Assembly (NCBI GenBank): GCA_030698575.1
Contig: JAUYMQ010000329.1
Coordinates: 1 to 6,620, forward strand
Length of the DNA: 6,620 nucleotides
Direction: 5' to 3'
Source of the DNA: Deltaproteobacteria bacterium
Lineage (GTDB): Bacteria; JAUYMQ01
Both the position numbers and the translations under genes were made by a program. The notes beneath the pieces are model-generated. The model had not been told where the DNA came from and did not search any database. It saw nothing but the letters and a program-made list of their open reading frames with translations. Shown one piece after another: positions 4,825 through 6,519 of the stretch (positions within the stretch are counted from its first letter, which is position 1; each line of letters begins with the position of its first letter).

Positions 4825-4831
4825 TGTTCTT

Positions 4832-4838
4832 CCTCCTT
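4832..4838 (-). promoter_or_regulatory. Strong ribosome binding site embedded in the tetR stop codon
   Basis: On the minus strand AAGGAGG lies 7 nt before the oxygenase ATG. Its first two A bases are the last two bases of the TAA stop (4839-4837) of the upstream regulator. This arrangement fits translational coupling, with ribosomes ending on the regulator re-initiating on the oxygenase. Confidence 0.8.
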
Positions 4839-5448
4839 AGTTTCCGCCCGGTGCTGAGTTTCCCCTGACCAGCGTCGCCATCATGGGCTCGACGAGGTCC
4901 TTGACTGCTGCGCCGAAGGTCAGCTTTCCAGCGAGGTGGAGGGTGATCACCCCGTGGAGGCCCGCCCAGAGAAGATGAGCGACGACATCGGGGTTCCCGG
5001 TAATCACGCCGGCCTCGACGGCCTGGGCGACCGCGTCGCGAAGCGGGCGCCATGTGCCGAGCGCCGCCTCGTCCAGCTCGGCATAGCTTTCGGGGGGATC
5101 CCTGTGAATCTCGAACATGATCCGGTAGCCGTCCGGATCGTCGAACGCGAACTGAACATAGGCCCCGCCAAGTTTCCCGAGCCGATCGAGCGGATCAAGC
5201 GAGGCGCGACTTGCCTGCTCCTGCGCCTGCGCGAAGCGCGCGTAGAGGCCCGCCTTGATCATTGCGAAGATCTCGTCCTTGTCCCGGAAGTAGCGGTAGG
5301 GGGTCATGGGGCTGCAGCCGAGCTCGGCCGCGATGGCGCGCATGGTGACGCCGGCGTAGCCGCGCTCGGCGAACAGATGCGTCGCCGCATCGATGATGCG
5401 CTCGCGGTAGGCCTCTATGGCGTCCTGGCTGAGGGCGGGGCGGGGCAT
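4837..5448 (-). CDS. TetR/AcrR-family transcriptional repressor, WHG-type C-terminus
   Basis: A 203-residue one-component regulator of typical TetR length. The DNA-binding domain covers residues 10-62: helix 1 RERIIDAATHLFAERGYAG, then the helix-turn-helix VTMRAIAAELGCSPMTPYRYF (34-54) ending in the usual FRDKDEIF. The C-terminal half (about 75-190) carries WAGLHGVITLHLAGKL (161-176), the Trp-x-x-x-His-Gly pattern of the TetR WHG C-terminal domain, which binds a small hydrophobic ligand and forms the dimer. The start is fixed by an in-frame TAG two codons upstream (5454-5452), and no Shine-Dalgarno precedes it. The promoter boxes place transcription start at or next to the ATG, so the message is probably leaderless. 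It heads an operon with the carotenoid oxygenase and has a palindromic operator over its own promoter, implying autorepression relieved by a substrate or product of the oxygenase. The ligand is inferred, not visible. Confidence 0.93.
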   Translation of the reverse strand: MPRPALSQDAIEAYRERIIDAATHLFAERGYAGVTMRAIAAELGCSPMTPYRYFRDKDEIFAMIKAGLYARFAQAQEQASRASLDPLDRLGKLGGAYVQFAFDDPDGYRIMFEIHRDPPESYAELDEAALGTWRPLRDAVAQAVEAGVITGNPDVVAHLLWAGLHGVITLHLAGKLTFGAAVKDLVEPMMATLVRGNSAPGGN

Positions 5449-5454
5449 CCACTA

Positions 5455-5483
5455 CTTTTACGCGGTAAAATTTACGCTGTCAA
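5455..5483 (-). promoter_or_regulatory. Promoter of the tetR-oxygenase operon
   Basis: On the minus strand the -35 box TTGACA (5483-5478) is a perfect consensus match. A 17-bp spacer leads to TAAAAG (5460-5455), 4/6 matches to the -10 consensus. Upstream of -35 the DNA is AT-rich (about 5484-5510), resembling an UP element. A start 6-7 nt after the -10 box falls at 5449-5448, that is on the ATG itself. Confidence 0.75.
5456..5483. promoter_or_regulatory. Tandem palindromic operator, probably for the TetR-family repressor
   Basis: TTTTACGCGGTAAAA (5456-5470) is a perfect 6-bp inverted repeat around GCG. A second, degenerate copy, TTTACGCTGTCAA (5471-5483), follows with its centre 14 bp away and one mismatch between its 5-bp arms. 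The two share TTTACGC, and the middle GTAAA-A-TTTAC is itself symmetric. Together they cover the spacer and both boxes of the operon promoter, so a bound repressor would block RNA polymerase. Ownership by the adjacent TetR protein is inferred from position. Confidence 0.75.
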
Positions 5484-5519
5484 CTAATTTATTTCCCTTT
5501 AATTCAAGCTACTTAGGAT

Positions 5520-5607
5520 GGGATCAGGTCTTGAATTTGACCCTCAAAGTCCGGCGACGCCTGGATCCTGCCCACCCCGGCGCTGGTCAAATTCTAGACC
5601 TGACCCC
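5520..5607. repeat. 88-bp imperfect inverted-repeat element (REP/MITE-like)
   Basis: Two 23-bp arms, 5520-5542 and 5585-5607, are inverted copies matching at 21 of 23 positions, separated by 42 bp of GC-rich DNA. The outer ends read GGGATCAGGTCTTG on the left and the complement of GGGGTCAGGTCTAG on the right; the inner ends are identical (GAATTTGACC). From memory, sequences of the GGGGTCAGGTCTTGAATTT type occur as dispersed palindromes in many bacterial genomes, often near REP-associated tyrosine transposases, but no transposase lies in this window. No clear target duplication flanks it. It sits between the divergent tetR and thioesterase genes and could also fold as a hairpin in RNA. Confidence 0.7.
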
Positions 5608-5732: not shown

Positions 5733-6167
5733 ATGCCTAGACCTAGCGAGATATTGGATTTGATCCTCAAGGGTCAGGGAACGCCGCCGCCCTTCGTGCA
5801 CGCGCTGCGCTTCCCCAAAATCGAAGGGTGGGAGCCCGGTCACGTCTGGGCGAAGTGGGAGGTCGACCGCGACTTCTTCCACCTTTTCGGCGCGGTCTTC
5901 GGCGGCTATCTTGCCGCGCTTGCGGATCAATTCGTCGGGCTCGCAATGCTTTCAACACTGGACGAAGGCGAGCGCTTCACGACTTCCGATCTGCGATATT
6001 CGTTTTTTCGCCCCGTGACCGGCGGCACGCTCACGATCGATGCCCGGGTCGTCCACCGCGGGCGCCGCATGGGGCACGTCGAGGCGATTTTCACCACCGC
6101 GGACGGCAAGGTCGCCGGCAAGGCGACCGCCACCCAGGTGATCATCCCCGTCCGCGAGGCGGACTAG
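5733..6167 (+). CDS. PaaI-like hotdog-fold thioesterase
   Basis: A 144-residue single-domain 4HBT/PaaI-type protein of normal family length, expected to hydrolyse acyl-CoA or aryl-CoA thioesters in the cytoplasm as a hotdog dimer or tetramer. The long hotdog helix is marked by HLFGAVFGGYLAALADQFVG (50-69). The later strands show LRYSFFRPVTGGTLTIDARVVHRGRR (87-112), HVEAIFTTADGKVAGKATAT (115-134) and a terminal QVIIPV. In typical PaaI enzymes the helix begins N-x-x-G-x-x-HGG and contains a catalytic Asp. Here the Asp is kept (D65) along with G53, G57 and G58, but the Asn position is His50 and the His before GG is Phe56. Substrate or mechanism may therefore differ, or the protein may bind a ligand without catalysis. 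The gene is alone on its strand, divergent from tetR across the inverted-repeat element and convergent with the HxlR regulator. Family call strong, substrate unknown. Confidence 0.88.
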   Translation: MPRPSEILDLILKGQGTPPPFVHALRFPKIEGWEPGHVWAKWEVDRDFFHLFGAVFGGYLAALADQFVGLAMLSTLDEGERFTTSDLRYSFFRPVTGGTLTIDARVVHRGRRMGHVEAIFTTADGKVAGKATATQVIIPVREAD

Positions 6168-6177
6168 GCCCGGGCGG

Positions 6178-6519
6178 CTACACGCGCGTCCTGCGCGGGC
6201 GGGCCGCCCATGATTTTGCCCACTTGTGCAGCGGCGCCAGTGCCAGCAGCAAGCCACGCCCTTCCCGCGTCAGCACGTAGCCCCCTTCCTCGCGGAGTAC
6301 GACCACCCCCGCCTCCCGGAGTTCCGTCAGCCTCTGATTGAGAACGCTCGGCGACATCGCGTCACACCGATCGCGCAGATCCCGAAACGTCGGTGTCTCC
6401 TCGCGCAGCTCCCAGAGAATCCGGAGCGTCCAGCGGCGACCCAGGAGATCCAGAAGCGCCATGATCGGGCGCCCAGTTCGGGAGCCCCTGACGCGCTTTC
6501 CCGGTCGAGGCACGGCCAT
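6178..6519 (-). CDS. HxlR-family winged-helix transcriptional regulator
   Basis: A 113-residue DNA-binding protein of usual HxlR length. The winged helix spans about residues 18-97. PIMALLDLLGRRWTLRILWEL (18-38) is the hallmark opening of the family. FRDLRDRCDAMSPSVLNQRLTELREAGVV (45-73) gives the recognition helix, and LREEGGYVLTREGRGL (75-90) forms the wing. The family usually has a Cys just before the PIM/PVE segment that can sense oxidants or aldehydes. Here that position is Gly/Arg (TGRPIM), and the only Cys is C52 next to the recognition helix. AAGGGG, 5-6 nt before the ATG, supports the start. The gene is convergent with the thioesterase, with 10 bp between the two stop codons, so the two genes do not share a promoter and no regulatory link between them is shown. 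Its targets may lie beyond the right edge. Confidence 0.9.
   Translation of the reverse strand: MAVPRPGKRVRGSRTGRPIMALLDLLGRRWTLRILWELREETPTFRDLRDRCDAMSPSVLNQRLTELREAGVVVLREEGGYVLTREGRGLLLALAPLHKWAKSWAARPRRTRV

Follow-up and report, generated by a model that had tools for sequence, protein, structure and literature searches.

A predicted operator array over the promoter of a probably leaderless tetR–oxygenase operon and its conservation in related TetR regulators

The tetR–oxygenase operon and its promoter region

The window, the whole stretch of DNA that was analysed, covers 6,620 nucleotides of contig JAUYMQ010000329.1 from a Deltaproteobacteria bacterium (assembly GCA_030698575.1). On its minus strand a regulator gene comes first and an oxygenase gene follows after a 12-nt gap, the same order as in acuR-type operons (Table 1). 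The product of the first gene matches PF00440 with 58.7 bits (cut-off 24) and PF13305, TetR_C_33, with 62.2 bits (cut-off 26.8), which identifies it as a TetR/AcrR family regulator. It is distant from every named NCBIfam entry and from every solved structure compared. Since most orthologs align with it from residue 1 (M/V-P/A/G-R), the ATG at 5448 is very likely the right start of tetR.

The second gene encodes a protein in which the PF03055 match extends over residues 36-490, a full-length RPE65 domain. Apocarotenoid 15,15'-oxygenase and lignostilbene dioxygenase belong to this RPE65 / carotenoid-cleavage family, and the match of the window enzyme to the family is full-length. Its HPK, MHD, FFH and GFHG positions align to those of the solved dioxygenase 5v2d, and the iron-ligand histidine positions are retained; we take these aligned histidines to be the four iron ligands. 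The enzyme scores under every NCBIfam equivalog cut-off.

Table 1. Features of the operon and of the region before tetR, in positions of the window
Feature	Position	Strand	Basis and remarks
RPE65 / carotenoid-cleavage-type dioxygenase, 494 aa	3340..4824	-	PF03055, E 4e-121
Shine-Dalgarno TAAGGAGGA of the oxygenase gene, strong	4831..4839	-	Sequence, duplex -11.9 kcal/mol; overlaps tetR stop codon
TetR-family regulator, 203 aa (TetR_N + TetR_C_33)	4837..5448	-	Pfam above cut-off
Predicted transcript start, A of tetR ATG	5448	-	Spacing, and 8-9 nt gap kept in most orthologs
In-frame stop TAG, two codons 5' of tetR ATG	5452..5454	-	Sequence
-10 hexamer TAAAAG, weak, without T at position 6	5455..5460	-	Sequence
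Proximal operator (predicted) TTTACCGCGTAAA	5457..5469	-	3' half-site GTAAA gives most of the -10; best-conserved part of the array in orthologs
Spacer, 17 nt	5461..5477	-	Sequence
Distal operator (predicted) TTGACAGCGTAAA	5471..5483	-	Sequence; 5' half-site TTGAC is also the -35; kept in orthologs as TTGAC or TTTAC
-35 hexamer TTGACA	5478..5483	-	Sequence; TTGAC or TTTAC at the equivalent place in orthologs
A+T-rich stretch 5' of the -35, possible UP element	5484..5514	-	Composition; UP role inferred

Read on the minus strand from about 5490, the DNA before tetR is ...AAATTAG TTGACA GCGTAAATTTTACCGCG TAAAAG TAGTGG ATG. We found that positions 5483-5457 consist of TTGACAGCGTAAA-T-TTTACCGCGTAAA, two 13-bp palindromes that lie 14 bp apart from start to start and are both copies of TTKAC-NNN-GTAAA. 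The initial annotation had described a perfect palindrome and a second copy covering the whole promoter within 5448-5483. When the proximal palindrome is extended to TTTTACGCGGTAAAA (5456-5470) its 6-bp arms are indeed perfect, but the GCG centre is asymmetric, and the array proper occupies 5457-5483. It covers the TTGACA of the -35 and all of the 17-nt spacer, as proposed, but only four of the six bases of the -10, a weak hexamer. A sigma-70 consensus scan called no promoter in this region because of the weakness of TAAAAG, in which the T usually found at position 6 is missing. Six bases separate the -10 from the ATG, so that a transcript starting at the usual distance would begin on the A of this codon. 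Such a geometry fits the acuR-type layout and is kept in orthologs, but it has to be set against the weak -10 and the blank scan. The GC content is 0.275 at 5480-5519 compared with 0.65-0.78 within tetR.

Just 5' of the tetR promoter, at 5520-5607, is an inverted repeat with arms like GGTCAGGTCTWGAATTTGACC that are 42 nt apart. Similar arms occur elsewhere in the genome on three contigs (C605, C327 and, as a pair, C498), which makes the repeat a REP- or MITE-like element of the dispersed kind. A link to Y1 transposases was considered; the genome contains three Y1 transposase genes, and the loci retrieved around these genes did not contain the arm motif. Beyond the repeat lie a hot-dog thioesterase gene (5733-6167), divergent from tetR, and after it a convergent gene for an HxlR-type regulator (6178-6519); both are without an array. 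At the other end of the window tandem NfeD-like and SPFH/Band-7 genes (466-1882) form an ordinary partner pair.

Conservation of the array and the genes behind tetR

In a scan of genome contigs with the TetR protein we found four distant regulators (28-32% identical) and no orthologs, and the best match in a plasmid search was 36% identical. A domain-wide sample gave one clear ortholog, 48% identical, and searches centred on its genome gave more. The upstream sequences of 52 orthologs, including that of the window, were then compared; the others are 37-56% identical to the window TetR, and all were taken from outside the phylum of the window, for which the search covered the window's own genome. 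Each array was scored as the best match to 20 positions within 60 nt of the start codon, and shuffles of the same stretches served as the null. A score of at least 15/20 was reached by 43 of the 52 orthologs and at least 17 by 33, while shuffles reached 15 in 0.05% of cases and never reached 17. Conservation of the palindrome before orthologous tetR genes had been named in advance as a test of the original proposal, and we find it in tens of orthologs, with unchanged spacing to the start codon.

Among the first 35 orthologs the array lies 8-9 nt from the start codon in 28. In these 28 the specified columns of the array hold a mean of 1.53 bits of information, compared with 0.25 bits for the 40 bases upstream and 0.35 for the gap. 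Retention of the array at 37-56% protein identity would not be expected of unconstrained DNA. One clade has a perfect distal palindrome (TTTAC) and a degenerate proximal one, and in another the distal half-site is TTGAC and the proximal palindrome is perfect. This exchange would suit two functional sites that share bases with the promoter hexamers, although it is confounded with ancestry. The closest layouts (L170 and L174) have a TetR with 46-47% identity, an array that scores 19/20 and lies 9 nt from the start codon, and an oxygenase with 49-50% identity; the arrays of some more distant RPE65-linked relatives (L160 and L168) are degraded.

In the genome of the window, 4.13 Mb in size, the full array has one match, a reversed control pattern has none, and TTTACGNNGTAAA occurs once. 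We then scanned 317 genomes of the ortholog's class for the array with at most two mismatches. It was present in 26 genomes, in 23 of which it lies directly 5' of the tetR ortholog, and 16 of the 18 exact TTTACGNNGTAAA sites in 21 tetR-bearing genomes are also at the tetR ortholog. The array thus goes with this TetR clade and marks what seems to be an autoregulator with a single target. We rejected a multi-gene regulon, as each genome has essentially a single array. The assignment of the array to the TetR protein and its placement over the promoter, both first made from the window by itself, are strongly supported by this near-exclusive position and by the ortholog conservation. Array-like matches in unrelated genomes look like chance, with no relative of this TetR there. 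At one locus (L147, about 1501-1527) a perfect double array, TTTACTGTGTAAAATTTACTGTGTAAA, stands some 90 bases 5' of a gene for a secreted trypsin-like protease; no relative of this TetR is nearby, and this array is probably another regulator's or due to chance.

The gene behind tetR varies. Among the 52 loci the partner is a CrtI/phytoene-desaturase-like flavoprotein in 35, an RPE65-type oxygenase in six (the window included) and an HlyD-type efflux adaptor in four; five have none of these partners and two offer too little sequence. The efflux adaptors (L169, L171, L172 and L173) lie behind arrays that range from good to poor. In the TetR tree, many deep forks of which are weakly supported, the RPE65 partners occupy four separate positions. 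We at first regarded the RPE65 partner as unconserved, and gave this up when the wider search yielded five more tetR-RPE65 pairs. Since two of the partner enzyme families act on polyenes, the partners suggest that the inducer may be a polyene-type compound.

The start of tetR and the contrast in Shine-Dalgarno sequences

The two genes of the operon differ in their predicted ribosome binding. For tetR the best duplex has an energy of -0.6 kcal/mol and TAG stands in frame at 5454-5452; for the oxygenase, with TAAGGAGG upstream, the energy is -11.9 kcal/mol. The initial annotation had read a missing binding site and an upstream stop at tetR and a very strong site at the oxygenase gene, and all of this was borne out. 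The comparison was extended to 18 ortholog pairs with a readable partner start. We found a Shine-Dalgarno core before 17 of the 18 partner genes and before one of the 18 tetR genes. The mean duplex energy was -7.5 kcal/mol for the partners and -1.3 kcal/mol for tetR (Wilcoxon p 0.0002, which overstates the independent evidence because the 18 rows are mutually related). In the single tetR with a core (L041) the possible Shine-Dalgarno, AGGA, overlaps the operator.

The fixed spacing and the lack of a Shine-Dalgarno sequence provide strong circumstantial evidence for a leaderless start of tetR. Some orthologs depart from the common spacing: five have a gap of 11-13 nt, which would give a very short leader, and in L064 the gap is 22 nt. 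A counter-example with a leader is L144, placed on the TetR tree's longest branch, which has a 40-nt gap and a Shine-Dalgarno sequence. The earlier proposal that transcription starts on the ATG therefore agrees with the spacing and with the missing site, and has this ortholog against it.

Proposed regulation, known systems and significance

The best explanation of these observations, and one that we hold with good confidence, is an autorepressed and probably leaderless tetR-oxygenase operon that would yield little repressor and much enzyme per transcript. Two TetR dimers may occupy the two palindromes. The half-sites TTGAC and GTAAA are themselves the -35 and most of the -10, and binding would therefore mask both hexamers and exclude RNA polymerase. 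An inducer, which may be a substrate or product of apocarotenoid, retinoid-like or stilbenoid type, would free the promoter from the repressor. Transcription would then begin at, or a few bases from, the tetR start codon. With neither leader nor Shine-Dalgarno the repressor would be poorly translated and the enzyme, from its strong site, well translated, so that the ratio of the products would be set on each transcript.

A different arrangement would keep the array as the operator of TetR and put the promoter 5' of it, within the A+T-rich stretch; the transcript would then have a leader, and the repressor would serve as a roadblock or a blocker of the start region. The weak -10, the A+T-rich tract at 5484-5514 and the leader with Shine-Dalgarno of L144 would all suit it. 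We nevertheless consider it unlikely, since a Shine-Dalgarno sequence is missing in the window and in nearly all orthologs, the gap from array to start is fixed at 8-9 nt, and the flanks 5' of the array are unconserved. An activating role of the TetR protein, or ownership of the array by another regulator, is more doubtful still. TetR-family activators do exist, one being reported in PMC6873888, but sites over both the -35 and the -10 suit repression, and within a genome the array goes with this TetR clade and is found hardly anywhere else. Palindromes rich in T and A arise more easily in an A+T-rich region such as this one, and they might be accidental or a functionless fossil of common descent. 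To this we attach hardly any weight: shuffles never attain the 17/20 that 33 of the 52 orthologs equal or exceed, and the adjoining columns are randomised.

The autorepressed operon that we favour has an experimentally proven precedent in acuR-acuI-dddL of Rhodobacter sphaeroides, in which the operator overlaps the promoter, acuR has no Shine-Dalgarno and its AUG forms the 5' end of the message; transcription of acuR is no lower than that of the genes behind it, its translation is far lower, and the layout recurs in diverse lineages (PMC3017554). The ratio of little repressor to much enzyme that we infer for the window would follow this precedent. Both operons place a TetR-type repressor gene first, have an inverted-repeat operator overlapping the promoter and carry the Shine-Dalgarno at the enzyme and not at the regulator, here as read from sequence alone. 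However, the acuR operator is a single TAATAGAC-N6-GTCTATTA, in contrast to two TTKACNNNGTAAA sites 14 bp apart in the window, and the enzymes serve acrylate/DMSP metabolism and not RPE65-type oxygenation. Because the operator differs, the identity as AcuR was rejected. PMC3017554 also cites Tn1721 tetR and lambda cI as leaderless repressor messages from which small amounts are made. The predicted message of the window resembles both in being leaderless, although cI, unlike the window regulator, is not a TetR protein. Tn1721 tetR is divergent to its target gene, unlike tetR in the window operon. Rv3160c-Rv3161c of Mycobacterium tuberculosis likewise joins a TetR repressor and a putative oxygenase in one operon, with nested palindromes and a -10 region needed for binding (PMC7810876), but both the operator layout and the putative oxygenase are different from those of the window. 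A search mostly outside subscription journals found no paper on this TetR clade.

The design is thus already known from other repressor genes, and that the window operon is a new example of it is well supported. In other bacteria, the genes of dozens of related regulators have the same layout in front of them. We suggest, tentatively, a widespread autorepression cassette, also outside the phylum of the window, in which half-sites double as promoter hexamers, the leaderless geometry is fixed, and the enzyme (CrtI-like flavoproteins or RPE65-type oxygenases) or an efflux adaptor can be exchanged; it might act as a modular sensor of polyene or apocarotenoid-like compounds. With its defined 27-bp array and its pattern of one site per genome, the system would be convenient as a candidate sensor in the search for the inducer. 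The analysis provides a testable predicted operator for a TetR clade of which we found no description and which in several lineages has carotenoid-type enzymes as neighbours; the depth of conservation and the exchangeable partner enzymes add to its interest. After acuR, it would be a further case of a leaderless repressor gene and a strongly translated enzyme gene kept together by evolution, and it supports the idea that leaderless starts serve to hold repressor levels low.
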